From a virus, in IMG/VR virus record IMGVR_UViG_3300032294_001787, positions 1 through 21,997 of that record: a DNA stretch of 21,997 bases; one strand, given 5' to 3'. Below are positions 161-20,882 of this stretch, one piece after another. Every line of letters begins with the position of its first letter. Position 1 is the first letter of the stretch. Under the pieces are notes generated by a model that saw only the letters and a program-made list of their open reading frames with translations, was not told where the DNA came from and ran no database searches. The translations under genes and the position numbers were made by a program.

Positions 161-550
161 ATGGTTGGTGGACTGTTAGTATTAGCCGAAAGTGATTTAA
201 AAACTTCCTTGGAATCCGATTTCGGAAGACAGGTAAGTATCACATTTCAGTCAGGCGTTAAAAATGTTTACGGTCAAGTAAACAGAATTAATGCATTAAC
301 AGATCCACAAACTAATTTAATGGTCAACATTCCTAGAATATCGGTAACTATTCGTATTTCAAGTTTGCAAAATGAAAATTTAGTAAACAATTTAGAAGTA
401 TCAACAACAGATATTACAGGTGATACAATAACTGGAAAAGTAGTAAATTGTAAACCTGATTTGACTTTAGGATTTATCACATTCGAGATTTCCGAAAAGA
501 AAAGTAACCAAACAAAAATAGACTTGAAATATGCCGGCTCCTCAGTTTAA
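161..550 (+). CDS. Putative head-tail connector/joining protein
   Basis: A 129-residue protein that is mostly predicted beta strand (alternating hydrophobic residues in VSITFQSG, RISVTIRISS and LGFITFEIS). It sits between the end of a head-side gene and a terminator-like gene that precedes the sheath. In Mu-like and P2-like phages this slot holds small head-completion or head-tail joining proteins. The size and beta-rich pattern would fit such a fold, but no signature motif is visible, so the role is inferred from position only. The ATG at 161 follows the upstream stop by one base; AGGTG at 141-145 is a rather distant ribosome binding site, so coupling is likely. The 3' end overlaps the next gene by 20 bases. 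Confidence 0.55.
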   Translation: MVGGLLVLAESDLKTSLESDFGRQVSITFQSGVKNVYGQVNRINALTDPQTNLMVNIPRISVTIRISSLQNENLVNNLEVSTTDITGDTITGKVVNCKPDLTLGFITFEISEKKSNQTKIDLKYAGSSV

Positions 551-1124
551 CATAGGATCGTATCACTATTTTTATAAAGTATTAATCACTACTTTAAAAA
601 CTTATGCAACTGCACAGGCAAGTCTTGACCCAGAATTAGGCTTTAAAGTTTTCGAGTCATACAGGGATTTTGGAATACAGGATTTACCACTTGTAAATGT
701 ATATCCTCCGAATTTAAATAACATTGAAGGAAGAAGTACTTCAAGAAATAGATGGTCGTATTCATGTGAATTTGAATTAGATCTTGTAACACAAGGATAT
801 GAATATAAAGAAGGTGTTGACGTTTATACAGCGGATCAAAGGGCAGTGGAAAGATTACTTGTCCTACAACAACAAGTTTTAAATGCAATTTATGCTTTAA
901 ATCAGGCTGATTTTGGATTTAATGCAGGTGAGATTTCACGTAAGACATTTCCTAGTATTCAGTCGTACAATCAAATGAATCAATCTCAGGAATCAATTTT
1001 AATTGGTAGTAAGATGACATTTTCAATGGAATTTGAATGGGTTCCAAGTGAAATACAAAGATCGTATCTCACAGACATAGTAATAAGCGGAAATAAATTG
1101 GCATTAAATTATGATTTTACTTAG
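531..1124 (+). CDS. Putative tail terminator / neck protein
   Basis: A 197-residue protein lying immediately before the sheath gene, the place where Mu-type and other contractile-tailed phages encode tail terminator or neck proteins. Features that fit include residues near 50-60 (LPLVNVYPPN), a central YSCEFELDLVTQGYEY strand region, a helical stretch (AVERLLVLQQQVLNAI), and a C-terminal strand with MEFEWVP. No catalytic motif is present and none is expected. The ATG at 531 lies inside the preceding gene with no clear Shine-Dalgarno sequence, so translation is probably coupled. The family assignment is inference from order and size. Confidence 0.5.
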   Translation: MPAPQFNIGSYHYFYKVLITTLKTYATAQASLDPELGFKVFESYRDFGIQDLPLVNVYPPNLNNIEGRSTSRNRWSYSCEFELDLVTQGYEYKEGVDVYTADQRAVERLLVLQQQVLNAIYALNQADFGFNAGEISRKTFPSIQSYNQMNQSQESILIGSKMTFSMEFEWVPSEIQRSYLTDIVISGNKLALNYDFT

Positions 1125-1136
1125 GAGTAATACAAA

Positions 1137-2624
1137 ATGATAACTTTCGAGGGTATCTCAAGCAATTCCAGAGCATCTGGAGTTTTCGTAGAGGAAAAAA
1201 ATGTTCAAAGAAGTTTTGGAAATTTGGTAGCTCCTCAGGTAATACTTATTTTAGGTCAATATAATTCTGGTAAGACACCAACCGACAATATACCTGTAAG
1301 AATTTTTAATAAAGAAGAAGCATGGGAGAAATACGGAAGAGGCTCGCTTCTTTCAAGGCTAGCCGAAAAAGTTTTCTTAGGGAATAGAGGACAGACAGAG
1401 GTCTGGACTTGTCCTTTGGCTGATAATGGTTCGGGAGTATTAGCAGAAGCAGAATTAGCAATTTCAGGAACTGCAAGTGCTACAGGCGTATTAAGTATCA
1501 CAGTAGGGGATAGAATTATAAGCGTATCGGTGGCAAGCGGTGCAACAGCTTCAACCGTAGCAACAGCCTTAAAGAATGCTATAAATGCAGACTTAGATTG
1601 TATGTTTACAGCTACTTCTTCAAGTGGTGACGTGACTTTAGTATCACGACATAAAGGATTATTTGGAAACGATTATCAAGTTTTTTTAAATCCAAGATCG
1701 ACCGATGCAACTCCCGCAGGTCTTACAGTTTCCGTAACACAGACGGCTAGTGGTGCAACAAATCCTTTAATTGCAACAGCTTTAGGAAATATGGGAGACA
1801 AGTTTTATACTGTAATTGTATCACCATATAACGATGCTACAAATTTAGGAAGTCTTAATACTGTAGGACTTGCGAGAATTGCCCCTAGTGTAAAACGTCC
1901 ATTTATTTCTTTTGTAGGAATAAATAAAAACAAAGCTGATTATATAACAGCTCTAGGAAGTTTGAACAGTCAATTTATTTGCACTATTCCAACTTTTGAA
2001 ACTCTCTATACTCCCAGTTTTGAACTAGCCGGGGAAATAGCTGGTAACTTTGCAAGGGTTCAACTAGCAACTCCGAATAGACCAGTAAAAGAAATTGCAA
2101 TATCTGGCGTATCATGCAAAGAAAATTTTGTAAATTTTACGTATTCCGAAAAGAATGATATTGTCTTAGAAGGCGGATCATGGTTTAAAATAAGCCCTGA
2201 AAATCAATTAATTATAGGCGACTTAGTGACTACCCGTACTACAAACTCATCAGGTGGATTAGAAGAAGATTGGAGATTTGCGGAAACTATGGCAAATTTA
2301 CAAACTAAAATTTATTCTTTAGATCAACTTTTTAACGGTTCAAAATATTTACAGGCAATTGTGGTTGACGATGATAGCATTACAAATCTATCATACGTTG
2401 TAAGACCAAAATCTGTAAAACAGGACATTATTAAATTAATCGATGAATTATGGATTCCCTTAGCACTATCAAAACAAAGAAATGATATTGTAGATAATTT
2501 GGTAACTGAAATAAATTCAGCAAATCCAACCAGAATAGATTGTTTTATACCTGATATTATGGCGGCAGGTTTAAGAATTGTAGCAGTAAGATATGAATGG
2601 TCATACAGCGGAGGAAATAACTAA
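1137..2624 (+). CDS. Contractile tail sheath protein (Mu gpL-like)
   Basis: A 495-residue protein, the length expected for Mu-type sheath protein L. The N-terminus (ISSNSRASGVFVEEKN) matches the conserved opening of sheath proteins. An inserted domain at about residues 105-190 has the pattern seen in Mu-like sheaths: a VGDRIISVSV strand, TASTVATALKNAINAD, then VTLVSRHKGLFGNDY. The C-terminal part carries the usual sheath features, including LATPNRPVKEIAISGV and a DWRFAETMANLQTKI segment before the final domain. The start has a near-perfect ribosome binding site, TTAGGAG at 1121-1127, nine bases before the ATG. The protein polymerises around the tube and contracts on infection. The stop overlaps the tube gene start as TAATG. 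Confidence 0.9.
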   Translation: MITFEGISSNSRASGVFVEEKNVQRSFGNLVAPQVILILGQYNSGKTPTDNIPVRIFNKEEAWEKYGRGSLLSRLAEKVFLGNRGQTEVWTCPLADNGSGVLAEAELAISGTASATGVLSITVGDRIISVSVASGATASTVATALKNAINADLDCMFTATSSSGDVTLVSRHKGLFGNDYQVFLNPRSTDATPAGLTVSVTQTASGATNPLIATALGNMGDKFYTVIVSPYNDATNLGSLNTVGLARIAPSVKRPFISFVGINKNKADYITALGSLNSQFICTIPTFETLYTPSFELAGEIAGNFARVQLATPNRPVKEIAISGVSCKENFVNFTYSEKNDIVLEGGSWFKISPENQLIIGDLVTTRTTNSSGGLEEDWRFAETMANLQTKIYSLDQLFNGSKYLQAIVVDDDSITNLSYVVRPKSVKQDIIKLIDELWIPLALSKQRNDIVDNLVTEINSANPTRIDCFIPDIMAAGLRIVAVRYEWSYSGGNN

Positions 2625-3004
2625 TGGCGGCTAGAGGCGGTGACGTAAGACAATATTTAATTTCAGGTCGAGAGTTTGACCCGGTAGCAGGATCTTCCCC
2701 TACTATTATTTTAGCGGGTTATATAAATGAAAATTTGCCTACTGGAAACGGAAAACTTCATACTGTATCACGAAGAAAATTAGGTGGTTTTGACGGCGGT
2801 GTTATTTCCTTGGATGCAACTAGAAAAGATCAGGAATTTATTCAAAATCTTATCAGTGGACAGGAAGCCTTTTCGGTATCGGTAACACTTGCAAGTGGTA
2901 TCACATATTCAGGCTCTGGAAAAATAGAAGGTGAATCTAATTTTAATTCAAACGACGGACAATTAGAATTTGCATTTAGAAGTGAAAATTTTGAACAAAT
3001 TTAA
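2624..3004 (+). CDS. Tail tube protein (Mu gpM-like)
   Basis: A 126-residue protein directly after the sheath, as in Mu and P2. It begins MAARGGDVRQYLISGREFDP and contains alternating strands typical of tube proteins, ending ...GQLEFAFRSENFEQI. Length is close to that of Mu-type tube subunits. Tube proteins stack as hexameric rings inside the sheath and form the DNA channel. The ATG overlaps the sheath stop (TAATG at 2622-2626) and GGAGG lies just upstream within the sheath gene, so expression is coupled. Assignment rests on position, size and general pattern rather than a unique motif. Confidence 0.8.
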   Translation: MAARGGDVRQYLISGREFDPVAGSSPTIILAGYINENLPTGNGKLHTVSRRKLGGFDGGVISLDATRKDQEFIQNLISGQEAFSVSVTLASGITYSGSGKIEGESNFNSNDGQLEFAFRSENFEQI

Positions 3005-3010
3005 AATTAT

Positions 3011-3439
3011 ATGAAAGAAAAAGTAAGCGAAGATATAGTAAGTATCACACTAGAAGACATGGAAAATGAGTTTGGATCAATTCCGTCTCAGAATATTAAA
3101 GATATTCTTAAGGAAGTTATCGCAAGTGGAAATTTAGTTTTTGATGATACAAAATCAGAAGTTTATTACGAACTACAAAAACCCGTTAAAAAAGATAACG
3201 GGGAAATGTTAAGTAAGCTTAAATTTTATGAACCGACATTGGCAGAAATGAAAGAGATTTCTAGGGGATCAAAATTACAGGCAAACTCAAAAGGTCAAAT
3301 GGAAATTGATACAGATACCCAAAGAAAATTGGCTATAAAAATGGTAACTGTTTTCAATGGTATTCCAGATGGATTATTAGACAGATTTAAGCGTCGGGAC
3401 GTGGCAGTAATTGAGGCGTTGTCTTATTTTTTCGCATAG
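3011..3439 (+). CDS. Tail assembly chaperone, short form (Mu gp41-like)
   Basis: A 142-residue acidic protein between the tube and tape measure genes, the universal position of tail assembly chaperones (lambda G; Mu gp41). The sequence has the expected mix: an N-terminal strand/helix region, a middle EPTLAEMKEISRGSK segment like the conserved 'tape-measure chaperone' core, and a terminal NGIPDGLLDRFKRRDVAVIEALSYFFA. The gene ends in a programmed frameshift signal: the slippery heptamer TTTTTTC lies at 3427-3433, immediately before the zero-frame TAG at 3437-3439. Ribosomes that slip make the longer 195-residue form annotated separately. Chaperones of this type coat the tape measure protein during tail assembly and are absent from the virion. 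Confidence 0.85.
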   Translation: MKEKVSEDIVSITLEDMENEFGSIPSQNIKDILKEVIASGNLVFDDTKSEVYYELQKPVKKDNGEMLSKLKFYEPTLAEMKEISRGSKLQANSKGQMEIDTDTQRKLAIKMVTVFNGIPDGLLDRFKRRDVAVIEALSYFFA

Positions 3440-3489: not shown

Positions 3490-3597
3490 AAGTGTGTAGG
3501 CGAAATACAAAAAATGAAACTCTCCGATTTAGAGTTTTGGTATCAGGGTGCAATTGATTTAATAGAATCAGAAAAAAATTATATGAAGGGGGCATAG
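3433..3597 (+). CDS. Frameshift extension of the tail assembly chaperone (GT/gp41'-like)
   Basis: The -1 frame after the TTTTTTC heptamer is open from CGC at 3433 to a TAG at 3595-3597, adding 54 residues to the first 141 of the short form (about 195 residues in total). The extension begins RIEPIYNLRNKILLVVDRF and ends with LSDLEFWYQGAIDLIESEKN and MKGA. A Trp/Tyr-containing helix followed by acidic and basic residues is typical of the T domain that lambda GpGT uses to bind tail tube subunits. This fills the only gap (164 bases) between chaperone and tape measure. No independent start with a ribosome binding site precedes it, which supports fusion by frameshifting. Confidence 0.85.
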   Translation, partial: RIEPIYNLRNKILLVVDRFKCVGEIQKMKLSDLEFWYQGAIDLIESEKNYMKGA

Positions 3598-3603
3598 TAA
3601 TAC

Positions 3604-5184
3604 ATGGCAAGACCGACATTATCTACAGTATTTACGGCTCATGACATGATGTCCCCTCAAATTAAAAAAATGCAAGACTCAGTATCACGTATGTCGGAAA
3701 AAATCCAACAAGTAAACGGTCAAGCTAGTGGATCTTTTTTAAATTTGAGAAATGCGGCTATTGTAACACTAGGATCATTGGCTATAAGAAAAGTAAACGA
3801 ATTTGAAAAAGAATTTGCAAGTTTAGGGGATGAAATAGCTAAAACTTCTGCTAGACTAGGATTATCATCAGAAGAGCTACAAAAATTGAGATACGCAATG
3901 GGACAGCAGGGCGTATCATCCGAAACATTGACACAATCTTTCGAAGTCTTGAATAAAAACTTAGGTTTACTTCAAAATAATCAAGGATTATTGTATTCTA
4001 AATTAAGAAAATCAAATCCAGAAATGTTAAAACAACTTCGTAATACTAAAAGTAATTATGAAGCATTTACATTATTAATGGATGCTATAAACAACCAAAC
4101 AGATGCCACTGAAAAAGCGGCTTTATCTACAATAGCTTTTGCGGGTGCAGGTCAAATGATGATTTTGGCGGCGGCTGGTGGTTCGGAAAAAATACAAAAA
4201 TTAAGTAAAGATGCTGAAAGGTTTGGAGTAATTTCAAACGAGGATGCGGCTAAGGCTGAAAGTTTAACCGATTCAATGGACAATTTAAGCAAAGCTTCGC
4301 AAGGCTTAAGAAATGTGGGATACGCTCCATTATTAGAATTACTTATACCATTAAATAATAAAATGGCTAATTATATAGCTAGCAATAAAGAATTTATTGC
4401 ATTAGGAATGCAGAAAGTATTAGAATTATTATTTAAAGCATTCGATATTTTAAAAATAGGAATGGATACTGGACTTATTCCCGTAATTATAGCCATGAAG
4501 CTAGCTTTTGAAGCGGCTAAACTTGCAATCGTAGCACAAACGGCGGTAACAACTGCATATACTGTAATACAATCAATATTAGATGTTGGATTAATTGCAA
4601 CTACTAAACTTATAATTGCACAGAATGCGGCTTGGCTTGCAAGCCCTTTAGGTATTGTAATTGTTTTGATTGCGGCTGTATCTTCTGGTATTTATTTACT
4701 ATACAAAAATATGGAATTAATTGACGGCATATTACAGAGTCTATGGAATTGGTTTAAGGAATTAAATATAGTTCTTAAAATACTTGTAGGATATTTAGCA
4801 TTAACAGCGGTCGCAATGGCAATTTCATTCGCTCCTGTTCTCGCTCCTATACTTGCAATTACAATAGCGTTATACGCCTTAGTAAAGGCTTATAAATGGG
4901 TAAAATCTCAATTATCAGGTGAACCATTAATTGAAGATAGTAATACACCTGAATTGCCTGGCATGTCTCCAATTGAAAGAAATCAAGTTCAATCTGCAAA
5001 CTCAGGAATGTTAAGCCAAACAATAAACAGAAATAATAATTCTAATGTCGTAGTGGATTTCAAAAACCTTCCTCAATTTGCAAACGTGACACAAAAAGGA
5101 TCGGCTCCTAATGTGACACTAGGAACGGGTAAAGGGATAGACCCTTTCGTATTATATGGCATGAGCGGAATATCAGGTAAATAA
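3604..5184 (+). CDS. Tail tape measure protein
   Basis: A 526-residue protein just after the tail chaperone genes. The first 40 residues hold a conserved-looking opening (STVFTAHDMMSPQIKKMQDS), followed by helical Gln/Lys/Glu-rich segments to about residue 240. Three hydrophobic stretches follow at roughly 290-312, 343-367 and 391-427, as expected for a tape measure that is ejected and may enter the host membrane. The C-terminus (about 440-526) is polar and Gly/Asn-rich. Length would predict a comparatively short tail. The ATG at 3604 has AAGGGGG at 3586-3592 as its ribosome binding site, inside the frameshift extension. The protein sets tail length inside the tube and is probably the partner of the two chaperone forms. 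Confidence 0.9.
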   Translation: MARPTLSTVFTAHDMMSPQIKKMQDSVSRMSEKIQQVNGQASGSFLNLRNAAIVTLGSLAIRKVNEFEKEFASLGDEIAKTSARLGLSSEELQKLRYAMGQQGVSSETLTQSFEVLNKNLGLLQNNQGLLYSKLRKSNPEMLKQLRNTKSNYEAFTLLMDAINNQTDATEKAALSTIAFAGAGQMMILAAAGGSEKIQKLSKDAERFGVISNEDAAKAESLTDSMDNLSKASQGLRNVGYAPLLELLIPLNNKMANYIASNKEFIALGMQKVLELLFKAFDILKIGMDTGLIPVIIAMKLAFEAAKLAIVAQTAVTTAYTVIQSILDVGLIATTKLIIAQNAAWLASPLGIVIVLIAAVSSGIYLLYKNMELIDGILQSLWNWFKELNIVLKILVGYLALTAVAMAISFAPVLAPILAITIALYALVKAYKWVKSQLSGEPLIEDSNTPELPGMSPIERNQVQSANSGMLSQTINRNNNSNVVVDFKNLPQFANVTQKGSAPNVTLGTGKGIDPFVLYGMSGISGK

Positions 5185-6491
5185 TGTCATACATAGATAG
5201 ATTAGAAATTCTTTCTTACCAGTCTCCAAAAAGAAAAACATTTGATTTACAGTTTGAAGACTTGGCTAGAAGTATCACAAGAAAAACATCTATAAATGAA
5301 TTTCCGTATCAAGACAGGGCAAATATTCAAGACCTAGGAATGGGAAATTTAAAAATTCCTATTCGTTGTTTTATAACTGGAATTGATTACGACTTAGAGG
5401 CAGATAGATTTTATAAGGCTCTTAACGAACAGGGATACGGTGTATTAGATCATCCTAGATGGGGATCTATTGACGTAATACCAATAAATATAACTCAATC
5501 AGAATCATTTGTTGATGGATTAGGAAGAGCGATTTTTGAAATTGAATTTGCAGAATATTTTCCCGATGCAACTAATTTCCCTGAAGATATTTCAAGTATT
5601 TTTAAAAATATTATAGGTGTAGTTACCGGAACTCTTGATATTATATTCCAAGCGATAGATAGCGTAATAACACTCGAAACAAGCGTAAGACGATTTACAA
5701 GAAATGCAAGACGTATTGTAGGTAATACTATTTCTGAAACACGTAGGATAGAATCAAGATTTAAAAGCGTATCTCAAAAATGGAAAGATGACACAAGAAA
5801 TAATTTTATAACAATTACATTTGGAGAAAGGTTTTCTATAGACGGTAGAAAATCACAAGACGATTTTAACAAATTGCTTAGAATATTTGATACATATCTT
5901 ACAAATAATCCAAGTTTTACACCAACAGAAGCGGCAAATAAGTTTATCGAATTACTTAGATTTCCTCAAAACAGTAGTATATCTGCAATACAAATTCAAG
6001 AATCATACAGTAAGACAATTGATTTTATAGATTCTCAATTCAATACAAACGGAAATACTATGAATGAATTTGAGGCAAATATTAATGGCTATATGGCAAT
6101 TAGTGCAATTGTTTCCATGTGCGAAAATGTTTTAAATTCTAGTATCCAAACTAGAGATAAGGCTATTTTATTAATAGAAAAAATATCAGAAAAAAGAGAA
6201 CAACTTAAATCTATTGTCGATAAAGTTAAAAACAAAAACGGCAACATCGATTATGATGTACTACAAAATACTTACACAGTAATAACAAATACGCAAAATT
6301 TAATTTTAAGTATATCGTTAAACATTCCAACTGAAAGAAAAATAATTTTATCAAAAGATACAACTCCTATAGAATTTGTTTACTCTCTCGATGGCTCAAT
6401 TGATAGACTTGATGAGTTAATGGAATACAACAATTTACAAAATAAAAATATACTTGTAATACCTAGAAATTATGTTATGAGGTATTATTAA
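5184..6491 (+). CDS. Tail/DNA circularisation protein (Mu gp43-like), with C-terminal LysM-like region
   Basis: A 435-residue protein following the tape measure. The N-terminal ~130 residues fit the 'DNA circularisation protein N-terminus' family of Mu-like phages: FDLQFEDLARS, GNLKIPIRCFITG, then the hallmark YGVLDHPRWGSIDVIPI and an EIEFAEYFPD end. The middle (about 150-380) is helical and variable. The last 40 residues (DRLDELMEYNNLQNKNILVI and PRNY) read like a degenerate LysM module. In the virion such proteins are thought to sit at the distal tube/baseplate hub; the 'circularisation' name is historical. The start overlaps the tape measure stop as TAATG. Confidence 0.8.
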   Translation: MSYIDRLEILSYQSPKRKTFDLQFEDLARSITRKTSINEFPYQDRANIQDLGMGNLKIPIRCFITGIDYDLEADRFYKALNEQGYGVLDHPRWGSIDVIPINITQSESFVDGLGRAIFEIEFAEYFPDATNFPEDISSIFKNIIGVVTGTLDIIFQAIDSVITLETSVRRFTRNARRIVGNTISETRRIESRFKSVSQKWKDDTRNNFITITFGERFSIDGRKSQDDFNKLLRIFDTYLTNNPSFTPTEAANKFIELLRFPQNSSISAIQIQESYSKTIDFIDSQFNTNGNTMNEFEANINGYMAISAIVSMCENVLNSSIQTRDKAILLIEKISEKREQLKSIVDKVKNKNGNIDYDVLQNTYTVITNTQNLILSISLNIPTERKIILSKDTTPIEFVYSLDGSIDRLDELMEYNNLQNKNILVIPRNYVMRYY

Positions 6492-7684
6492 TGAGCGTAT
6501 TAGATAATACAAATTCAGAAACTTTAAAAACACTAAGAAAAGTAGAAAATGGAATTGATACAAAAAATGTAGAAATAAATAAATTTTTTGCATTAGGAAA
6601 AGAAAAGTCTCCTATTAATATGTATGTTAACGGAAAAGAATTTACTCAATTCAATTCTTTGCGTATCTCATATTCTATAGATTCCGCATGTTCGGCATTT
6701 AGTTTTGATACAATATTTTACCCTTCAAAGGGAACAAGTAATACAATAAAACCATTTGGATATGAAAGCGTTAATATTTTATATAATAATAAAACTATTT
6801 TTAATGGTTATATTGAAAAAATAACAACAGGGTATTCTAATAATGGCTCTAATTTAAATATACAGGGCAGATCTTTAGGAGGTATATTAGTAGATTCCGA
6901 TATTAAAAAATCTTACTATCAAACTACAACCCTCACAAATCTCGCTCAATTAAATGGAATTTTATTCATAGAGGTAGATCCCGATGAAAGATTCCAGGCT
7001 GTAAATATTGATGAAGGCGAAAACTTTTTCGGTATAATATCCAAATACGCTTCCCAAAAAGGATTATTTGCAATTCCAAAATTAAACGGCGGTTTGTTAT
7101 TTAAAAAAATAAATAGATTAACCGATACTGGTTTTAATATAGAAGATGGAAGTCAGAATGTCCTAGGGATATCTGCAAATTTCGATATTACTAAAAGATT
7201 TTTTGAATATATCGGTATCAAAAGAAACGTATCACCTAAGTCAATATTTGATAGTTCGATATCGACTAAAAGGGGTTTAAGATATTACAGGGGAGACGAC
7301 TTATCGGGTAATACGGAAGAAATAGCAAAAAAAGCAAGATCGAAAATGATTTCAGAATCATTTACTTTAGCCGTATCACTTTCTACTTGGACATTGAATA
7401 ATGAATTATTGTTACCGGGTATTTTATGTAAAATTAAATCTCCCATGAATATGATTTATAATTTTGAAAGTTTTGTAATAAAACAAATAGATTATACGTA
7501 TGACATTAACAATGGTTACCTGGCTGAAATGCAATTTACTTTGCCAGAGGCTTATACAGGCGAAAATATAAATCCTTTATTCTTTGGAACTTTCACAGAA
7601 AAAGATAGAAGTTATCGTGAACAATTTTTCAGAATACCTGATAATAAAGAAATATATGATAAAGTCATAGGATTTTTTTCATGA
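6491..7684 (+). CDS. Baseplate hub protein (Mu gp44 / gpP-like)
   Basis: A 397-residue protein in the slot of Mu gp44, the trimeric baseplate hub related to T4 gp27 and to P2 gpD. Supporting segments are the early domain YVNGKEFTQFNSLRISYSID, the strand pair VNILYNNKTIFNGYIEKI, the GRSLGGILVDSDI segment typical of gp44-like hubs, and a central FDITKRFFEYIGI. A late region (LLLPGILCKIKSPMNMI, DYTYDINNGYLAEMQFTLP) matches the final hub domain. It would link the tube end to the spike. It is coupled to both neighbours: TAATG at its start and ATGA at its end. Confidence 0.8.
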   Translation: MSVLDNTNSETLKTLRKVENGIDTKNVEINKFFALGKEKSPINMYVNGKEFTQFNSLRISYSIDSACSAFSFDTIFYPSKGTSNTIKPFGYESVNILYNNKTIFNGYIEKITTGYSNNGSNLNIQGRSLGGILVDSDIKKSYYQTTTLTNLAQLNGILFIEVDPDERFQAVNIDEGENFFGIISKYASQKGLFAIPKLNGGLLFKKINRLTDTGFNIEDGSQNVLGISANFDITKRFFEYIGIKRNVSPKSIFDSSISTKRGLRYYRGDDLSGNTEEIAKKARSKMISESFTLAVSLSTWTLNNELLLPGILCKIKSPMNMIYNFESFVIKQIDYTYDINNGYLAEMQFTLPEAYTGENINPLFFGTFTEKDRSYREQFFRIPDNKEIYDKVIGFFS

Positions 7685-8169
7685 ATATTATAAAAGTTAT
7701 ATTATCATATTTTGGTAAATTTGCGAAAAACGATAATAATTCTCAAATTGCAAAATTAATTGAATACAATGAATTTATATCGGAGGCTCAATTTTTCCAA
7801 ACGGCTGGTATTATTTCAGGACTAACTCCTAACGATGAAATTGTTGTATCACGATTAGATGGCGGAGGGTATCGGGTAGGTATTGCAAGTTTTAATTATA
7901 AAATAGGAATAGAGGCGACTTCAGGTCAAACTAAGATTTATTCTACCGACCCAACAGGATTAATAAAACAAGCTGAAATAATTTTAGATAGTAACGGAAA
8001 AGTTAAATTATCAAATTCGACTCAATCAATAAAAGCATTATTAGATGATTTAATTGATGAACTTATAGATTTTAAAACTTTCGGGACACCCTCTAACCAT
8101 ACAACAGATCCGACAACAATTACTAATTTAAATTTAATAAAAACTAAAATAGGACAACTGTTATACTAA
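7681..8169 (+). CDS. Baseplate spike protein (Mu gp45-like)
   Basis: A 162-residue protein after the hub. The N-terminal OB-like part includes FFQTAGIISGLTPNDEIVVS and LDGGGYRVGIASFNYK, followed by short strand repeats (KIGIEATSGQTKIYSTDPTG, AEIILDSNGKVKLSNS) like the beta-helix of gp45 spikes. The end carries the usual helical/polar finish: LLDDLIDELIDFKTFGTPSN and a final LNLIKTKIGQLLY. Length is slightly shorter than Mu gp45. The trimer is expected to form the membrane-piercing tip of the tail. It is coupled to the hub gene by an ATGA overlap. Confidence 0.8.
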   Translation: MNIIKVILSYFGKFAKNDNNSQIAKLIEYNEFISEAQFFQTAGIISGLTPNDEIVVSRLDGGGYRVGIASFNYKIGIEATSGQTKIYSTDPTGLIKQAEIILDSNGKVKLSNSTQSIKALLDDLIDELIDFKTFGTPSNHTTDPTTITNLNLIKTKIGQLLY

Positions 8170-13444: not shown

Positions 13445-14548
13445 TTATTTTACCTTTCTGTAATACAGTCTTTTAAATTTTGATACGTTTACTAAATTAT
13501 TTTCAATTACTTGTTTGTAAATCTCAGGTGCTTTTTCTTCCAAAGTCTTAAGACTCAAAGATTTCCTTTCAGATTCCGAGCATGTAACTAATACGTCTCC
13601 CTCTGGTGTTTGAATCCTTGAATTTTCTCCCATAAGGATACCGATTGAATTTTGTATTTCATCCAATTCTTTTTCAATTTCGCTTGCTTGCTTACTAAGT
13701 TCTTCCCTTCTTTTTAAAATTGTTTCAAGTGAAATATCATTTTTGATTGAATAGCTTTTTTGTAATACGACTGCATTTTCAATTGTTTTTGGATATAGTC
13801 TTTGAACGTCTTCCCATGTTAAGGGTTGAGGAGGTATATTTTCCGATAAATGCCCTTTAAATCCATTTACCATTTTGGTAATGCTTTCTATGGTAATTTC
13901 ATCATAATATTTTTTATTATTTGAAATATATTCTCTATAATCAGAGGTATCAATAAGACATGATACACCAAGAGAAATATTATTTTTTTGTATTTCATAA
14001 CACTTGCAATACACATGCAATTGAAATTGAGTTTGCATATATACCGACAAGGGCAATCCATTTAAACTTGTATCACTACTAGAATATCCGTACTCATTGT
14101 TTTCATCCCTTTTTGAAGAATATAATCTTAATGATTTAGCTTCCTGAATATGATATTTTTTGTTAGGTAACTTTATAAATAAATCAGCATGAGCAATATT
14201 TTTTATTCCAAAAAATCCTTCATATTCTGCTTTTGTATTTGAATAAAATTCATATCCATCGGCTTTAAATTTATTTTTACCTGTAAGACGTTTTACTAAC
14301 CATTTATTGGCTATTTCTTCATTGCATAAATTTTTTATGTATCTATGTAAAATATTTAATTCGTGTCTATGTCCCCAGTATGTCGATTCGTTACCCTGAA
14401 AAGGCTCTGAGATACCTTTTTTTTCTTCATATAATTTTAAAGGCGTTTGACCGTATTTTACATTTAAACCTGCAATCGTAGGAACGTCACTTGACCCGAT
14501 AGCGTTTTTACGTTCTCCATGAAAATCTTCTATGAATTTTATTTTCAT
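13445..14548 (-). CDS. YqaJ-type viral recombinase exonuclease (lambda-exo-like)
   Basis: A 367-residue PD-(D/E)XK nuclease. The opening IGSSDVPTIAGLN...GQTPLKLYEEKKG is the YqaJ-family signature. The helix with STYWGHRHE (around residues 55-63) supplies a catalytic Glu, HADLFI holds D122, and HIQEAKS holds E136 and K138; QTQFQLHVY (172-180) is the usual Gln-containing helix. These enzymes digest one strand of duplex DNA to make the ssDNA used by RecT. The C-terminal 90 residues include a coiled-coil-like KRREELSKQASEIEKELDEI. The ATG overlaps the PC4-like gene as ATGA and the gene lies just upstream of RecT, as in Bacillus YqaJ-YqaK. It is somewhat longer than lambda Exo. Confidence 0.9.
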   Translation of the reverse strand: MKIKFIEDFHGERKNAIGSSDVPTIAGLNVKYGQTPLKLYEEKKGISEPFQGNESTYWGHRHELNILHRYIKNLCNEEIANKWLVKRLTGKNKFKADGYEFYSNTKAEYEGFFGIKNIAHADLFIKLPNKKYHIQEAKSLRLYSSKRDENNEYGYSSSDTSLNGLPLSVYMQTQFQLHVYCKCYEIQKNNISLGVSCLIDTSDYREYISNNKKYYDEITIESITKMVNGFKGHLSENIPPQPLTWEDVQRLYPKTIENAVVLQKSYSIKNDISLETILKRREELSKQASEIEKELDEIQNSIGILMGENSRIQTPEGDVLVTCSESERKSLSLKTLEEKAPEIYKQVIENNLVNVSKFKRLYYRKVK

Positions 14549-14878: not shown

Positions 14879-15192
14879 AACAACCTCTGGATTAATTTTA
14901 CACCTCTTACACAACGCACATAGTATCTGAGAGTCTTATAGCTGTAGTACACGTACCCGAGGGCGAAATTCACGCCCCATGCAGAGTCCGTACCCTGTGC
15001 ATACGTACTCGAACTCCAATAATAGTCAGACTTAAATCCTTGAATATTATTATCATAAGCATCTATTAGTTCCGCCCTTGTCGGTAATCGCCAACCTTCA
15101 CCTAATGACTTAGCGTATTCCATTGCTTCATACCAATTAAGACTCGTATCACCATCCCAATTTTGCCATTCTAATTTTGTTTTATTTTTCAT
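14875..15192 (-). CDS. DUF1566 / Lcl C-terminal-domain protein, possible hypervariable C-lectin fold
   Basis: A 105-residue protein that is essentially one DUF1566 domain: LEWQNWDGDTSLNWYEAMEY, GEGWRLPTRAELIDAY, DYYWSSSTYA, AWGVNFALGYVYY and RYYVRCVRG. These domains usually occur in secreted or surface proteins and have a C-type-lectin-like fold; here there is no signal peptide. The stretch for residues about 62-91 is coded by a strikingly GC-rich segment (about 60% in 14941-15000, 36 of 60 bases) with many NNC codons, unlike all neighbours. It overlaps the helicase gene by 11 bases and the tiny ORF downstream by 4. In phages such domains can be targets of diversity-generating retroelements; no reverse transcriptase is in the window. 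Role unknown. Confidence 0.75.
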   Translation of the reverse strand: MKNKTKLEWQNWDGDTSLNWYEAMEYAKSLGEGWRLPTRAELIDAYDNNIQGFKSDYYWSSSTYAQGTDSAWGVNFALGYVYYSYKTLRYYVRCVRGVKLIQRLL

Positions 15193-16624
15193 TTTTAACC
15201 TTCTCCCATACGATTTCTGTCCATCCGATTTTATATCCTAAAATTTCTCTTAACTTATCCAATTCACTTTTTCCGTTTTCTTTATTTGCTAATTTGTATG
15301 CCGTTGACCATAATAGTTTTTGTTTCAATTCTTTTGTATCACTTGCAATTGCTTTTAATGCAACTTCAAAAAGGTCAGAATCTAAATCAGGGAAATCGGC
15401 TCTTAATTTTCCTTCTAAAACTCTTATATCAATTTTCTTTTTTTCTATTTCTTGCTTAGTAAAATCGAAATTGCAATTCAAACACTTTGACGGTTTCCCT
15501 TCCCATACTGAGTAACATTTAGGACATTCCGTAATACTTGGTTTTGATTTCTTAGAATCTCTTTTTTTTGAGTCTAAACTCCATTCTCTATTTTGTAATA
15601 CGTGACCATGTATAAGGGAATTTCCAGCGTGATCTAAAATAATAGTTTTATCTTTACCGGGATAAGGTCTTAAAGCCCTTCCAATTTGTTGTAAATATAA
15701 ACTTAAACTTAGTGTTTTTCTAAGTAAGATAGCTCCCGCAAGCATGGGAACGTCTACACCTTCGCTTATAACGTCACACGAGGTAAGTATTTGAGTATCA
15801 CCATTCGACAAACCTAGAATGTATTTATCTCTTAATTTATCGTCCATATTTCCATAAACTGCATAAGATTTATAACCTTGATTTGTAAACTGCTCAGCCA
15901 TAAGTTTTGAATGTTCAACCGTAGGACAAAAACAGACAACCGGTAAACCGTCTAAATGTTCTTTGTAGTGTTGTATCACATCTCCTACAATATGCTTTTC
16001 CGAAAGAATAGTTTCTTGTTCTTTTGTATCGAAATCTCCCTTTTTTATTTTAAAACTCTGAGGGATTCCAGGCGGTTTGTAAATTATCGGATAAGATAAA
16101 TATTGATTTTTTACGGCTTCTTTCGTTTGTATTCCAATTATTAAATTATCAAAAAGATTATTCTCTCCTAATCCTCTCCCATCTAATCTTTCAGGTGTGG
16201 CAGTAAATCCGATTCTAGGAACATCGGAATAATAATTTACAATTGATTGCCAAGTATTACCAAGTATATGGTGACATTCATCAATAATAATCAGATCGGG
16301 TTTATTGATTTTATTAAGTCTATTTACAACGGTTCCGACCATACCACACTGGACATTTTCCTTGTAAGACATTATAGAATTTGTTGTTATTTGACCCGCA
16401 TGTATCCCAATATCATACAATTTAATCATTGTTTGACGGTGTATCTCCCTTCTGTGAGTCAAAATAAGAACGTGCTTTTTGTTCTCAGCTGTCATTTTTG
16501 CAATTTGAGCAAATACGACCGTCTTACCTGTTCCCGTAGGTAATACGACACATACTCTTTTCTTGTTTTCCGAAAATGAGTTTCTGACTCTTTGAATTAT
16601 ATCGATCTGGTATTCTCTTAACAT
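15182..16624 (-). CDS. SF2 DEAD/DEAH-box helicase with zinc ribbon
   Basis: A 480-residue helicase of the SSL2/UvsW-like type. Motifs in order: Q-like REYQIDII at the N-terminus, Walker A LPTGTGKT (28-35), DECH (115-118), TATPERLDG (141-149), a second RecA domain with CFCPTVEHS (231-239), the motif V region TSCDVISEGVDVP (281-293), and motif VI QQIGRALRP (312-320). A four-cysteine zinc ribbon follows (CPKC 367-370, CLNC 381-384) and then a helical tail. It probably remodels replication or recombination intermediates, as UvsW does in T4. It lies between the VRR-NUC and DUF1566 genes on the same strand. The GGGATG upstream of the ATG is a fair ribosome binding site. Confidence 0.9.
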   Translation of the reverse strand: MLREYQIDIIQRVRNSFSENKKRVCVVLPTGTGKTVVFAQIAKMTAENKKHVLILTHRREIHRQTMIKLYDIGIHAGQITTNSIMSYKENVQCGMVGTVVNRLNKINKPDLIIIDECHHILGNTWQSIVNYYSDVPRIGFTATPERLDGRGLGENNLFDNLIIGIQTKEAVKNQYLSYPIIYKPPGIPQSFKIKKGDFDTKEQETILSEKHIVGDVIQHYKEHLDGLPVVCFCPTVEHSKLMAEQFTNQGYKSYAVYGNMDDKLRDKYILGLSNGDTQILTSCDVISEGVDVPMLAGAILLRKTLSLSLYLQQIGRALRPYPGKDKTIILDHAGNSLIHGHVLQNREWSLDSKKRDSKKSKPSITECPKCYSVWEGKPSKCLNCNFDFTKQEIEKKKIDIRVLEGKLRADFPDLDSDLFEVALKAIASDTKELKQKLLWSTAYKLANKENGKSELDKLREILGYKIGWTEIVWEKVKNEK

Positions 16625-17044: not shown

Positions 17045-17221
17045 TTAATATTTCCAATTAGGTTTATTTTTTAGTCTAAAATCTCGATCTTCTTTGAATT
17101 GTAATACTGATTTTTTATCATAATTATTTTTATGAATCCTGATCAATTTACCATTCCGAACAAGTTCAAAAATTTTAGACTTGCTTAGATTTAGTAATTC
17201 AGATACTTCGCTTGTCGTCAT
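17045..17221 (-). CDS. Small helix-turn-helix DNA-binding protein
   Basis: An ORF of 58 codons (MTTSEVSELLNLSKSKIFEL, then VRNGKLIRIHKNNYDKKSVL, ending NKPNWKY). The first 25 residues form a winged/excisionase-type helix-turn-helix pattern: a first helix, 'NLSKSKI' recognition helix, then VRNGKLIRI wing, as in HTH_17/MerR-like proteins. It may be a regulator or excisionase-like factor. Its start overlaps the 3' end of the preceding small gene by 23 bases and the VRR-NUC start follows its stop closely. No strong ribosome binding site is seen, so coupling is likely. It could be a regulator of this operon or of the phage switch. Confidence 0.65.
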   Translation of the reverse strand: MTTSEVSELLNLSKSKIFELVRNGKLIRIHKNNYDKKSVLQFKEDRDFRLKNKPNWKY

Positions 17222-17366: not shown

Positions 17367-17566
17367 AATTTTTCACCTGTAATACTTATTCCTTTTTTTA
17401 TTCTCCATAAACATTCCTTAACAACTCTATTTAAATCTTCGTGGTCATTATTGCGAGGCTGTCTATATATCCATGATCCTATGTCCGATTCTTTGCCTTT
17501 GTATAATTCCCTGCATTGTCTTACAAGTTCGTCAAATTCAATTAAATGTTTAGGTTTTTCTACCAT
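17363..17566 (-). CDS. Small protein of unknown function
   Basis: A 67-residue protein, amphipathic and charged (HLIEFDELVRQCRELYKGKE, then WIYRQPRNNDHEDLNRVVKE). The WIYRQPRNNDHEDLN part gives it a specific look, but no known family is identified. It overlaps the upstream acidic 38-residue gene by 7 bases and ends in an ATGA overlap with the next small gene, so it is a member of the coupled chain. Confidence 0.65.
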   Translation of the reverse strand: MVEKPKHLIEFDELVRQCRELYKGKESDIGSWIYRQPRNNDHEDLNRVVKECLWRIKKGISITGEKL

Positions 17567-17676
17567 TTATCTTTCCAGTATCGTTCGGCTTGTTCTTCAT
17601 ATAATTTTTCTAACTCTTCTTCGCTTGGCTCGTATTCATCTTGTATTTCATCATCTTCGCTTTCATCTTCAATCAT
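17560..17676 (-). CDS. 38-residue highly acidic protein
   Basis: An ORF of 38 codons rich in Asp and Glu (MIEDESEDDEIQDEYEPSEE, ending AERYWKDKW). It begins with an ATGA overlap with the preceding gene and ends overlapping the next start by 7 bases, which argues for a real coupled gene. GGATTAAG lies just before the ATG. Strongly acidic small phage proteins can act as DNA mimics or inhibitors, but nothing specific is shown here. Confidence 0.55.
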   Translation of the reverse strand: MIEDESEDDEIQDEYEPSEEELEKLYEEQAERYWKDKW

Positions 17677-17846
17677 TTTCTTAATCCATCAATAATATTT
17701 ATAAGTTTTCTCTGTCTCTCGGCTTTTTGGCGTGCGTAGTCATACGTGCAGGGTACTTCCCTAGAGGTTGATCTTATTAAAGTCACTCCGTTTTTTTCTG
17801 TGATACTTTGCGATTTTACTTCAAATGTGTAATACTGTTTATTCAA
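17673..17846 (-). CDS. Small basic protein, TTG start favoured, function unknown
   Basis: A 57-residue protein from a TTG at 17846 (NKQYYTFEVKSQSITEKNGV, ending RQKLINIIDGLRK-like helix). The TTG has an ideal ribosome binding site GGAGAG at 17860-17855 with an 8-base spacer and overlaps the dCTP deaminase stop by only 8 bases. In-frame ATG codons at 17912 and 17891 would give 79 or 72 residues but overlap the deaminase gene by 53-74 bases and lack a good binding site. The middle holds a Cys-Thr-Tyr (VPCTYDYARQKAERQRK) segment followed by a basic helix. No family recognised. It ends in an ATGA overlap with the acidic small gene. Confidence 0.6.
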   Translation of the reverse strand: MNKQYYTFEVKSQSITEKNGVTLIRSTSREVPCTYDYARQKAERQRKLINIIDGLRK

Positions 17847-18348
17847 AATATTTACTCTCCTGTATAGTTTTTTGATTTTGATATCTGCCATCGTAATTCG
17901 TAATATCCCCATAAGGAATGTAATACGAAATTTGACATATTTCCATGTTCGGATAAATAATAACGGGTTGAACTACAAATATTTCTAATGTCCATCTTCC
18001 TTTAAATCCCATGTCTCCAAACCCAGCTGTAATATGAACCGAAATACCAAGTCTTCCAATAGAAGATCGACCGTCTATTTTTGGGACAAGATTATAGGTC
18101 TCAGTATATTCATTCGTTGAGCCGAGATACAAAATATTAGGCTCTAATACTAATCCGTGTTTTGGTATCTCGATTGTATCCGTTTTTAGTCTTTTGGGAT
18201 CTAATAAATGATTTTTATATTTTTTTAATTCAGGAAATAAAGTCAAATTATACGAATTAGGATTTAATTTCTTAGGATCGAAAGGGTCGATTTTTATATC
18301 GTCCCCTTCGTGCCAACGTCTTAAGATTTCCTGACCTGTTAAAATCAT
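17839..18348 (-). CDS. dcd: dCTP deaminase / dUTPase-family protein
   Basis: A 169-residue protein with clear Dcd features: LNPNSYNLTL near residues 28-37, LEPNILYLGSTNEY, the GRSSIGRLGISVHITAGFGD core (93-112), and WTLEIFV with E122 corresponding to the catalytic Glu of dCTP deaminase. The end ICQISYYIPYG plus YDGRYQNQ closes the trimer-type fold. It deaminates dCTP to dUTP, or in bifunctional types on to dUMP; the sequence alone does not separate these. Phages use it to supply dUMP for thymidylate. It is coupled by ATGA to the large fusion gene upstream. Confidence 0.9.
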   Translation of the reverse strand: MILTGQEILRRWHEGDDIKIDPFDPKKLNPNSYNLTLFPELKKYKNHLLDPKRLKTDTIEIPKHGLVLEPNILYLGSTNEYTETYNLVPKIDGRSSIGRLGISVHITAGFGDMGFKGRWTLEIFVVQPVIIYPNMEICQISYYIPYGDITNYDGRYQNQKTIQESKYFE

Positions 18349-20882
18349 GCTATTTTTTCCATCTCAAACAATGTCGGTGCGGTTATGTTTTCAACTATTG
18401 ATTTATTGTAAAAAATTGAATCCTTGTAATACTCTGAATTTAATTCTATTCCTAAACCTTTTCTATTCATTAAAACAGATTTGTAGGTAGTACTACCTAA
18501 ACCGTTAAAAGGATCCAAAACAATTTCATCTTTCATTGAATATCTATCTATAAGTCTTTCTATAATGTCCAATTGTAAAGGGCAGATATGTTTTTCTTTC
18601 TTGGCAGATACTTGCCTGGCATTTAAAGTATTCATTCTGTTTACGTCCGTCCATACTAAATCATTATTAGAGTGAACCGGTAAAGTTTGATACGTCGAGG
18701 AAAGTCTTTCTAAATTATCTAAATCTTTACAAATTTCTAAATGTTCCTTATAACTGTAAATAGCTTTTTTGTTATGTTTTTTCCATCGAGATACGATTTC
18801 TTTTACGGAATACTTTCCGAGTTCTTCAAAACTTAAAAGCCTATCCCCGTTCGATCTGTAATACGCATGAGCATCTAATTGCCATTGTGCCTTAGAATAC
18901 TCATCTTTTGTTTTTATTACAGGTGTATCACTATAAGAATTATCATTCGATGAAGGAGGCTTTCTGAAAATCAAAACATATTCAGGTAAACCAACTCCCA
19001 TTTTAGAACCGTCTTTTCTTTGCTCTGTCCATCCCAGTCTATAAGTCTGATTATTTTCAGCCACAACGTCGGTCGTAATAGTAATTTTACCTATTAAAAA
19101 AAATCCATGTTTTTCAAAACTCATAACCGTTTGACCTGAAAAATCTGAGATAGTAGTAAAAGAAGTTCCATTTTGATATGAGTATCTTATTCGATCTTTG
19201 ACGTGAATGCATGCTATTCTACCAGGTTGCAATACTCTATAAAGGTTAGGTATTAAATAATCCATCTGTTCAAAGAATTTACCGTTTCCGTGATTATGAC
19301 CAAAATCATTGTAATTATCCGAATATTCATAATGGTCTCCGAACGGAATTGAAGTTAAAATTAAATTTACAGAATCATTTTTAAATTCGTTAGTATCCTG
19401 CAGTGCAATTACATTGTCATTGTTATACAGACTTACTAATCCTTCTCCAAGTATCACTTTGTTATTGTTTTTGAATATTTGTCTTTCCATCTGGCTTTTA
19501 ATTATCTCCTTATTTAACCCATACTTTTTAACTAATTCGATCATCTGAAAATTTAGTTCTTTGTGATTTTTCCATTTTTCTTTTATTGTTTTCATAATTT
19601 CAGTTTCGGCAACTGTATAAATTATATGAACATTTACTTGTTTTTTTTGTCCAAAACGATACTGCCTATGTATAGCTTGGATAAAATCATTAAACTTATA
19701 ATCTATACCACAGAATATCATATCACTTGAAGCATCTTGAAAGTTACATCCTGACCCGGCTATTTCAGGTTTTGTAAGTAAATATTTATATTTACCTTCT
19801 GAAAATTCTATAATATTTCTTTCCTTAAGATCGTTTTTTTGGCTCCCATAAACAGAAACATAAGACTCACCTTTTAAAGTTTTTTCTAGTAAATATCTTT
19901 CGGCTTCTAAGTTATGCCAAAGTATCACGTTGCCTTCTATTTCCTTTGCAATCTCAATAGACTTTTCAATCCTATTGTAAATCGAATCTCTCTTTTCTCT
20001 CGATACTTCTATAAGCCCAGACTTAGTTATGTTTTTTATTAAAATCCTTTCTCCAAACTTGTCATACAATTCTTTTTTGGTATTGGTAGAAATTACATGT
20101 TCAATGATATTTAATTTTGGCAAATCGTATCCTTTAGAATTATAACCATAATCAGCAGGCGTATTTATGAAAGCCGCCCATGTGGAAACCCATTGCCAAA
20201 ACTCTTCTTTTTTATTGTCATACAATTTTAGATTTCCAGCTTTTTGAGAATCTCTTTTAAAAAACCTTGTCAAAGCGTGACCCCTGGAAATAACTCCTAA
20301 GAAATCGGCATAATTTAAAATCTCTATGTAATCGTTAGGAGTAGGGGTAGCGGTCGCAACTATTCTGTATTGCAAATTTTTAAAATGATTTAAAACGTAA
20401 TTTGTTGTTTCGGTTTGCAAATTTCTAATAATAGAAGCCTCGTCCATTGAAACGCCTATAAAATTATTTGCGTCAATGTTTCCCATTCTTACACGTTCAT
20501 AATTTGTAATATAAATCTGAGGAGGTTTATTTTTATCAATAGAATCGGTTTCTTTAATATATTGTATTTCGATTCCAGTATTTAGTTTTATATTATCTCT
20601 TTTAAATTCTCCTGACACACCTAAAGGGCATACAATTAAAAAACTTTTATTATAAGTTTTTATTAATTGCTTAGCTATTTCTAATTGCATAAATGTTTTA
20701 CCTAATCCAAAACTTGCAAAAATAGCTCGTCTTCCGCCTTCTATACAAAAATTTACTATATCTTTTTGGTGCGGATAAAGGTTTTTTGAATATTCTAAAT
20801 TATTTAATAAATCTTTTTTCATTCCAAAACTTTCAGCAACTACAACTTTTTTCTTTAAAAATTCTCCATATTCCATTTTCAT
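18345..20882 (-). CDS. SNF2-type helicase fused to a DNA methyltransferase
   Basis: An 845-residue two-domain protein. Helicase part: LYPHQKDIVNF (35-45), Walker A FGLGKT (58-63), DEAS in SMDEASIIRN (147-150), ATATPTPND (176-184), and QAIHRQYRFGQ (402-412), the SNF2 motif VI. Methyltransferase part: motif IV TSIPFGDHYE (510-519), a helical EYVLIFRKP region near 634-642, and the AdoMet motif I DPFNGLGST (790-798) near the C-terminus with a KHICPLQLDIIERLI helix before it, so the catalytic motif precedes motif I, a beta-class order. The usual motif IV is SPPY/SPPF; here the second position is Ile, an oddity. It may modify phage DNA while translocating along it. The 4-base ATGA junctions on both sides show tight coupling. 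Confidence 0.9.
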   Translation of the reverse strand: MKMEYGEFLKKKVVVAESFGMKKDLLNNLEYSKNLYPHQKDIVNFCIEGGRRAIFASFGLGKTFMQLEIAKQLIKTYNKSFLIVCPLGVSGEFKRDNIKLNTGIEIQYIKETDSIDKNKPPQIYITNYERVRMGNIDANNFIGVSMDEASIIRNLQTETTNYVLNHFKNLQYRIVATATPTPNDYIEILNYADFLGVISRGHALTRFFKRDSQKAGNLKLYDNKKEEFWQWVSTWAAFINTPADYGYNSKGYDLPKLNIIEHVISTNTKKELYDKFGERILIKNITKSGLIEVSREKRDSIYNRIEKSIEIAKEIEGNVILWHNLEAERYLLEKTLKGESYVSVYGSQKNDLKERNIIEFSEGKYKYLLTKPEIAGSGCNFQDASSDMIFCGIDYKFNDFIQAIHRQYRFGQKKQVNVHIIYTVAETEIMKTIKEKWKNHKELNFQMIELVKKYGLNKEIIKSQMERQIFKNNNKVILGEGLVSLYNNDNVIALQDTNEFKNDSVNLILTSIPFGDHYEYSDNYNDFGHNHGNGKFFEQMDYLIPNLYRVLQPGRIACIHVKDRIRYSYQNGTSFTTISDFSGQTVMSFEKHGFFLIGKITITTDVVAENNQTYRLGWTEQRKDGSKMGVGLPEYVLIFRKPPSSNDNSYSDTPVIKTKDEYSKAQWQLDAHAYYRSNGDRLLSFEELGKYSVKEIVSRWKKHNKKAIYSYKEHLEICKDLDNLERLSSTYQTLPVHSNNDLVWTDVNRMNTLNARQVSAKKEKHICPLQLDIIERLIDRYSMKDEIVLDPFNGLGSTTYKSVLMNRKGLGIELNSEYYKDSIFYNKSIVENITAPTLFEMEKIA

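Follow-up and report, generated by a model that had tools for sequence, protein, structure and literature searches.

One-strand words in the window and mapped nick words in other phages

According to one report (PMC11780129), programmed nicks in phage genomes have been known for 50 years with their function still missing; phage Rembedalsseter carries 13 of them, located at WACTRTGAC, and a net strand excess of this nick motif marks a cluster of 61 phages. Another (PMC3517423) describes phage tf, whose top strand carries 14 nicks at TACTRTGMC spread over two convergent gene modules, and whose relatives prefer another variant of the nick word. Here, we describe a family of oriented 7-bp words, headed by GTATCAC, in a 21,997-base virus record with 32% G+C (IMG/VR IMGVR_UViG_3300032294_001787, positions 1 to 21,997; the whole stretch is referred to as the window, G000). 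The record is classed as linear, and records of this class are often fragments. Judged from its gene content, the window belongs to a contractile-tailed phage. Its right-going genes encode head closure, tail sheath, tube, tape measure and baseplate proteins, and its left-going genes encode RecT, a YqaJ-type exonuclease, a PC4-like protein, an SF2 helicase, a VRR-NUC nuclease, a dCTP deaminase, an SNF2 helicase-N6/N4 methyltransferase fusion and a primase.

GTATCAC occurred 28 times on the + strand of the whole window and its reverse complement GTGATAC 4 times (one-sided binomial P 1e-5 for 28/32). This recount agreed exactly with a by-eye count in an earlier sequence-only reading of this DNA, which had also put the expectation from base composition at about one. 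Markov models of orders 0–3 gave 0.76–1.61 expected copies. The word was in excess over every order tried, including orders 4 and 5, where 7.5 and 16.6 copies were expected; these expectations are higher because such models absorb much of the word itself. Assignment to open reading frames (ORFs) recovered the split given in that reading, with 20 copies in right-going and 8 in left-going ORFs, all in one orientation. Its claim that the word falls in all three reading frames also held: the right-going phases were 9, 9 and 2, the three example frames matched the ORF starts, and the left-going ORFs used two of the three phases.

The word list of the sequence-only reading was correct for GTATCAC but missed GTAATAC, which is equally polar in the window (27/3). 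The reverse complement of this word, GTATTAC, was at background (3 vs 3.2 expected). Because GTAATAC and GTATTAC differ only at the central base, this base alone carries the polarity. GTCATAC (6/1) and GTTATAC (7/0) shared the same polarity in the window, and GTAAGAC (12/6) and GTATCTC (12/5) were enriched with weaker polarity. GTATCAC, GTAATAC and GTCATAC together gave 61 polar sites in 22 kb. The final 2.07 kb of the window contained no GTATCAC, no GTAATAC and two copies of GTGATAC.

Codon usage as the cause was ruled out by codon-preserving shuffles of 28 ORFs, where GTATCAC reached a mean of 4.4 and a maximum of 10 in 400 shuffles (28 observed), and GTAATAC in coding sequence was expected 5.6 times with a maximum of 14 (23 observed). 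A promoter or translation signal was rejected as well, as sequence logos had no further conserved flank and GTATCAC occupied all three frames of right-going genes. Tandem repeats were rejected because the words here are dispersed. For comparison, eight other strong polar words in six loci comprised six clustered tandem repeats and two dispersed words, namely CCTCTGG (6/2, L092) and CCTGATG (12/0, L091). The latter is spread over 19 kb of a 21,971-base stretch of IMGVR_UViG_3300028559_000098, which comes from the same sample as one relative of the window (L001); its polarity may reflect codon use.

The words resemble the nick words of tf and Rembedalsseter in several respects: an enriched word lies on a single strand, crosses convergent modules and has few permitted variants, the main variant differs between related phages, and the density is uneven along the genome. 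This likeness is one of word features rather than of genome-to-genome comparison. As in nicked phages, the word is in strong excess on one strand and near background on the other, and keeps one orientation across opposed gene modules. As a control, the same statistic was applied to tf, where the mapped nick word came out first among 9-mers (11/0, z 28). The nicks of T5 and phiKMV type are likewise one-strand sites of unknown benefit; their motifs differ from the present words, and in T5 the unnicked strand, too, has five copies of the consensus (PMC3517423).

Reversal in one lineage, conservation, exchange and spacing of the words

Seven IMG/VR contigs were found by a tail sheath search, giving eight records including the window. 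The DNA identity to the window was 72.5–97% over aligned parts, and 70–92% among the relatives. GTATCAC was polar in all eight sheath-defined records (28/4, 20/0, 18/1, 21/0, 19/1, 38/1, 9/1 and 14/2). The longer relatives showed no polarity switch (18/1, 19/1 and 38/1 over 38.3, 36.5 and 38.6 kb). Two short contigs with 83–85% TerL identity contained 1/0 (L346) and 6/3 (L344; 85% TerL identity, 4.8 kb) copies and were left out of the eight-member count. At most three GTATCAC per strand were found in the 79 other contigs (L018–L096) among the best 80 of 126 matches to the helicase-methyltransferase. Flavobacterium phage FCL-2 had 0/1 and L361, a 42% helicase relative with 60% G+C, had 2/2. No relative came up when genomes were scanned with the tail sheath, and a literature search for GTATCAC together with 'phage' found no paper. 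Scans of viral and genome contigs for all three words at gaps of 0–30 were uninformative by design, given that pairs closer than 30 bp are avoided (see below). In five of the triple-word records, inspected among the matches listed, the words were mostly clustered in short stretches, which appear to resemble repeat-rich genes.

GTAATAC kept the common sense in seven records (27/3, 16/1, 37/3, 28/2, 30/1, 9/1 and 11/1), as did GTCATAC (6/1, 7/1, 17/2, 15/3, 20/2, 3/1 and 4/1). In lineage G5 both words were reversed (2/20 and 0/15, respectively), while GTATCAC kept its common orientation. In seven records GTATCAC, GTAATAC and GTCATAC share a strand, as do their G5 counterparts within G5. Depending on the lineage, GTAATAC runs with or against GTATCAC, and a reader whose preferences are fixed can therefore not serve all lineages unchanged. 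The enriched words follow GTA-W-NAC or its complement, with the addition of GTATCTC and, more weakly, GTATTGC and GTATTTC. GTAAGAC and GTATCTC, in contrast to the three polar words, occur on both strands. Among single substitutions the first and last letters were nearly required, and the largest exceptions were about two- to threefold (GTATCAA 22 vs 11.1 and 17 vs 6.9; ATATCAC 7 vs 2.6 in G5). Three pairs of GTNNNAC words containing GTAC were nearly absent (0, 1 and 1 vs 10.7, 4.7 and 4.9). Despite containing GTAC, the pair GTACTAC/GTAGTAC was enriched (26 vs 9.3).

The sites were compared between genomes against a background of 7-mers of the same G+C class. GTATCAC was kept at 7/13 sites from G2 to G5 (background 15%, binomial P 0.001) and at 8/22 from the window to G5 (13%, P 0.006), as well as at 8/17 from the window to G1 (29%) and 10/20 from G1 to G2 (27%). 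GTAATAC was kept at 8/10, 11/20 and 12/16 sites within the window-G1-G2 group, where the background was 25–33%. None of its sites (0/17 and 0/26) was kept to G5, and for GTAATAC and GTCATAC together 0/40 were kept from G2 to G5 (15.5% background, P 0.001). When exchange was tested, GTAACAC and GTTATAC were added to the family (for G5, GTTATAC and GTCTTAC). Changed family sites turned into another family word in 9/54 cases from G2 to G5 (3.4% in controls, Fisher P 0.0002), in 5/39 from the window to G5 (3.2%, P 0.012) and in 3/14 from the window to G1 (2.6%, P 0.009). Taken together, conservation and exchange indicate that positions tend to be kept while the words are exchanged. The claim in the sequence-only reading that selection acts on the DNA itself is therefore upheld by three lines of evidence, i.e., codon-preserving shuffles, site conservation and word exchange.

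The polar sites also avoid each other. In the window, G2 and G5 together, one pair was found at 7–30 bp where 10.0 were expected, and 4 of 3000 control word sets were as low; at 7–60 bp there were 9 pairs vs 23.1 expected, with 1/3000 control sets as low. The words for this test were picked by polarity, not by spacing. By genome, the 7–60 bp pairs were 1/8.8 (observed/expected) in the window, 2/7.1 in G2, 3/6.8 in G4 and 6/7.2 in G5; G5 thus adds little to the signal. The coefficient of variation (CV) of the gaps was 0.74 in the window, 0.66 in G1 and 0.81 in G2, compared with 0.97–0.98 under the null, so the sites are more evenly placed than random ones. The words are a real, selected and oriented family that is specific to this lineage. 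Site conservation, exchange between family words, mutual avoidance and the reversal in G5 are new findings in a little-known group of tailed phages.

Possible readers of the words

The most economical account is a single reader that acts on one strand and whose specificity drifts. We tentatively read the words as sites of a single sequence- and strand-specific activity of this phage group, most likely a strand-nicking endonuclease; by analogy with the mapped systems this is possible rather than probable. Nicking is preferred because programmed nicks are known phage features with such a signature, and nicking would require that close pairs be avoided. One reader would see all words as pseudo-palindromes of the type GTA-W-NAC, and the asymmetry of each word would tell it which strand to treat. 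Nearby sites would be avoided since two nicks within 30–60 nt would free a fragment or break the duplex. In G5 the preference of the reader would have changed, with GTATTAC and GTATGAC marking the same strand in place of GTAATAC and GTCATAC. A further reading, a genome-wide strand-marking code, seems to us less likely than not: at a pseudo-palindromic 7-bp site, the central base or an arm mismatch would show one enzyme which strand to treat, spaced positions would be kept while words turn over, and the meaning of the central base would have been reversed in one lineage. The only gene put forward for a nickase, that of the VRR-NUC nuclease, is a weak candidate for encoding the reader of the words.

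Several observations weigh against nicking. The system differs from tf and Rembedalsseter, which have 13–14 sites of 9 bp: the present words are 7 bp long and number 61 in 22 kb. Nicking here would be far denser than in tf, with a polar site every 336 bp of the window as compared with 14 in 46 kb. It also differs in using several words, some enriched without polarity, and in the reversal of one lineage. For GTAAGAC/GTCTTAC, GTATCTC and GTATTGC, the enrichment comes with weak polarity or none. The nicks of tf and Rembedalsseter were mapped physically, whereas the present group is known here from sequence alone. Nor does the polarity statistic single out nicks. Among 7-mers, the tf word TACTGTG comes only third, and the top polar 9-mers of T7 are pieces of its promoters. 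GTGATAC was slightly above expectation in codon-preserving shuffles (4 vs 0.87, maximum 4). Owing to shared ancestry with the window, the word counts of G1–G4 are not independent. GTATCAC conservation was modest from G5 to G2 (7/31 vs 15%) and from the window to G2 (9/26 vs 21%), and word exchange was small from the window to G2 (2/35 vs 1.8%) and from G1 to G2 (2/19 vs 1.5%). As for spacing, the 30 and 60 bp limits were set after the gaps had been seen, and in single-genome controls 5–11% of word sets were at or below 0.3 of expectation at 7–30 bp. The signal in G5 was weak (1 vs 3.1 at 7–30 bp, 6 vs 7.2 at 7–60 bp), and its gap CV of 1.16 was not below the null. Finally, non-polar words avoid polar sites only partly (4 vs 15.1 at 7–15 bp, 34 vs 28.3 at 15–30 bp, 21 vs 28.3 at 30–45 bp and 19 vs 28.3 at 45–60 bp).

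Two rivals of nicking are live, strand-specific methylation and a genome-ordering protein. The words may be sites of an adenine methyltransferase of the Type IIL, BREX or Type III kind (GTATNm6AC), encoded by the phage or the host, with many one-strand marks benefiting the phage. The GTATNAC shape fits single-strand adenine methylation motifs, which counts for this reading, as does the presence of helicase-methyltransferase fusions in members of the group; in G5, where words are reversed, the fusion is a different one and a further methyltransferase is present. We nevertheless consider methylation rather unlikely, as mutual avoidance within 30–60 bp is not predicted by it, G4 has the words in the common polarity yet no fusion match in its 36.5 kb record, and the words are absent from the 79 other fusion-homologue contigs among the best 80 of 126 matches. 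The last two results also rule out the helicase-methyltransferase as the sole reader. Alternatively, a protein of the phage may bind the words to coat the genome or keep it in order during packaging, replication or ejection, with polarity arising from the direction of movement; this would account for avoidance at footprint distance and for the even spacing in the window, G1 and G2. The structural half of G5 is richer in sites (51/73 in the first 20 kb, P 0.001). The regional excess in G2 is weak (44/72, P 0.08), G5 spacing is not even, no binding protein was identified, and a fixed direction of movement bars the reversal of GTAATAC unless the specificity changed; we regard this explanation as unlikely.

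The functions proposed in the sequence-only reading fared worse than its observation, which was confirmed. Selection at the DNA level and the argument against simple avoidance stood, the listed functions were weakened, and the best analogue, strand-specific nick sites, was not on its list, so that its interpretation is partly supported. One of the listed functions was a polar signal defined by the host and copied by the phage, i.e., Chi for AddAB/RecBCD, an FtsK-orienting word or an uptake word. Chi is polar, and the polarity of GTATCAC continues across the longer contigs. As in lambdoid phages, some of which hold very many Chi sites, a short word is over-represented in a phage genome; in phages that have recombinase genes and block the host machinery, selection acts against Chi (both PMC3784561). 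Chi is over-represented in phages without recombinases of their own, whereas the window phage encodes RecT and a YqaJ-type exonuclease, for which reason Chi is disfavoured. It is disfavoured also by the G5 reversal of GTAATAC and GTCATAC, which one fixed host reader fails to explain. An FtsK- or uptake-type signal was weakened by a search for hosts by word density in 17 mixed genomes and 395 genomes of a single phylum, identified as Bacteroidota because it is that of an Ulvibacter genome. None of them came near the phage density, although the host may lie elsewhere. The Bacteroidota maximum was ~185 GTATCAC per Mb (both strands) vs ~1450 in the window, and some Bacteroidota genomes exceeded a backward-word control up to about fivefold. 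Best matches of single genes diverged, with the methyltransferase pointing to Flavobacterium phages, the sheath and TerL to Bordetella, Aeromonas and Vibrio phages, and the primase to a Synechococcus phage followed mostly by proteobacterial phages. Overall, a host-defined signal appears improbable. Still less probable is escape from Type III or Type ISP restriction that needs two opposed sites, each word keeping one arbitrary orientation. This explanation accounts for uniform yet arbitrary orientation, the G5 reversal included, and the loss of all 40 GTAATAC and GTCATAC sites from G2 to G5 looks as if the wrong orientation had been removed. However, one orientation should then be depleted, as it is in T7, where CAGCAG is absent (5–9 expected) and all copies lie in the orientation CTGCTG (36 vs 18–31 expected); we take these to be EcoP15I sites. 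In T7 one orientation is depleted and the other little in excess, and the window shows the reverse. Its rare orientation is at background, not depleted, and opposite pairs exist (4 GTGATAC and 3 GTATTAC). In the window, G1 and G2 together, GTGATAC occurred 5 times vs 2.1 expected and GTATTAC 7 times vs 7.4; in G5, GTGATAC occurred once vs 1.2 and GTAATAC twice vs 3.7, a mild deficit. Word exchange and spacing are also not predicted by restriction escape.

If the words are nick sites, they would represent a much denser nick system in another group of contractile-tailed phages, and the reversed words of G5 would be a natural experiment on how strand choice is encoded. Further phages of this kind could come to light through a simple genome test that combines the strand-net word excess across opposed genes with mutual spacing. 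Should the words turn out not to be nick sites, then entire phage genomes are acted on by a different process reading a single strand.

Site positions, neighbouring genes and avoided palindromes

The polar sites, their counter-oriented copies and the VRR-NUC gene are listed in Table 1.

Table 1. Positions of family words and of the candidate nuclease gene in the window
Feature	Position	Strand	Remark
GTATCAC	237..243	+	
GTATCAC	560..566	+	
GTATCAC	1495..1501	+	
GTATCAC	1641..1647	+	
GTATCAC	1818..1824	+	
GTATCAC	2765..2771	+	
GTATCAC	2898..2904	+	
GTATCAC	3042..3048	+	
GTATCAC	3682..3688	+	
GTATCAC	5272..5278	+	
GTATCAC	7229..7235	+	
GTATCAC	7373..7379	+	
GTATCAC	7846..7852	+	
GTATCAC	8243..8249	+	
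GTATCAC	8343..8349	+	
GTATCAC	8847..8853	+	
GTATCAC	9321..9327	+	
GTATCAC	9828..9834	+	
GTATCAC	11579..11585	+	
GTATCAC	11614..11620	+	
GTATCAC	14070..14076	+	inside left-going gene
GTATCAC	15146..15152	+	inside left-going gene
GTATCAC	15336..15342	+	inside left-going gene
GTATCAC	15795..15801	+	inside left-going gene
GTATCAC	15973..15979	+	inside left-going gene
GTATCAC	18925..18931	+	inside left-going gene
GTATCAC	19451..19457	+	inside left-going gene
GTATCAC	19922..19928	+	inside left-going gene
GTAATAC	40..46	+	
GTAATAC	1127..1133	+	
GTAATAC	1239..1245	+	
GTAATAC	3597..3603	+	
GTAATAC	4040..4046	+	
GTAATAC	4564..4570	+	
GTAATAC	4940..4946	+	
GTAATAC	5475..5481	+	
GTAATAC	5722..5728	+	
GTAATAC	6456..6462	+	
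GTAATAC	6738..6744	+	
GTAATAC	7308..7314	+	
GTAATAC	10469..10475	+	
GTAATAC	11708..11714	+	
GTAATAC	12681..12687	+	
GTAATAC	12902..12908	+	
GTAATAC	13460..13466	+	
GTAATAC	13762..13768	+	
GTAATAC	15531..15537	+	
GTAATAC	15595..15601	+	
GTAATAC	16540..16546	+	
GTAATAC	17101..17107	+	
GTAATAC	17379..17385	+	
GTAATAC	17829..17835	+	
GTAATAC	17920..17926	+	
GTAATAC	18426..18432	+	
GTAATAC	18858..18864	+	
GTCATAC	656..662	+	
GTCATAC	2600..2606	+	
GTCATAC	5186..5192	+	
GTCATAC	17739..17745	+	
GTCATAC	20061..20067	+	
GTCATAC	20217..20223	+	
Counter-oriented GTATCAC (GTGATAC on +)	420..426	-	
Counter-oriented GTATCAC (GTGATAC on +)	17800..17806	-	
Counter-oriented GTATCAC (GTGATAC on +)	21399..21405	-	
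Counter-oriented GTATCAC (GTGATAC on +)	21441..21447	-	
Counter-oriented GTAATAC (GTATTAC on +)	9102..9108	-	
Counter-oriented GTAATAC (GTATTAC on +)	11188..11194	-	
Counter-oriented GTAATAC (GTATTAC on +)	16254..16260	-	
VRR-NUC nuclease gene, 126 aa	16663..17043	-	67-84% identity in G2, G4, G5

The VRR-NUC gene is adjoined by a left-going ORF of 58 aa with an HTH_17 match (17045–17221). The PC4-like protein (PF02229, 64 aa, 14545–14739) has ~80% identity in G2, G4 and G5. A 105-aa protein with an Lcl_C domain (PF07603, 14875–15192) lies in the left-going module, where it is odd among the replication genes; it had no counterpart among the ORFs of G2, G4 and G5 at E 1e-6. The helicase-methyltransferase fusion (18345–20882) has 96% identity in G2 and is unmatched in the G4 record. 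The fusion of G5 lies elsewhere in the genome and is 35% identical to that of the window. From its presence and absence across G2, G4 and G5, the fusion gene seems to come and go within the group. The matches found with PADLOC were to helicase and methyltransferase families of many systems. No tRNA genes were found in eight contig halves.

The palindrome GTAC is strongly avoided in the window (17 vs 67.8 expected), in G2 (26/106) and in G5 (22/106), and GGCC, CCGG and GCGC are likewise low in the window. Of the window, G2 and G5, only G5 has GATC among its most avoided palindromes (33 vs 108.5 expected), and this genome also carries the extra methyltransferase. Two further genes of G5 (L016:11482-12213 and L016:13283-13897) code for a thymidylate synthase of the ThyX type and for a protein with a match to phage lysis proteins of the cysteine-protease kind.

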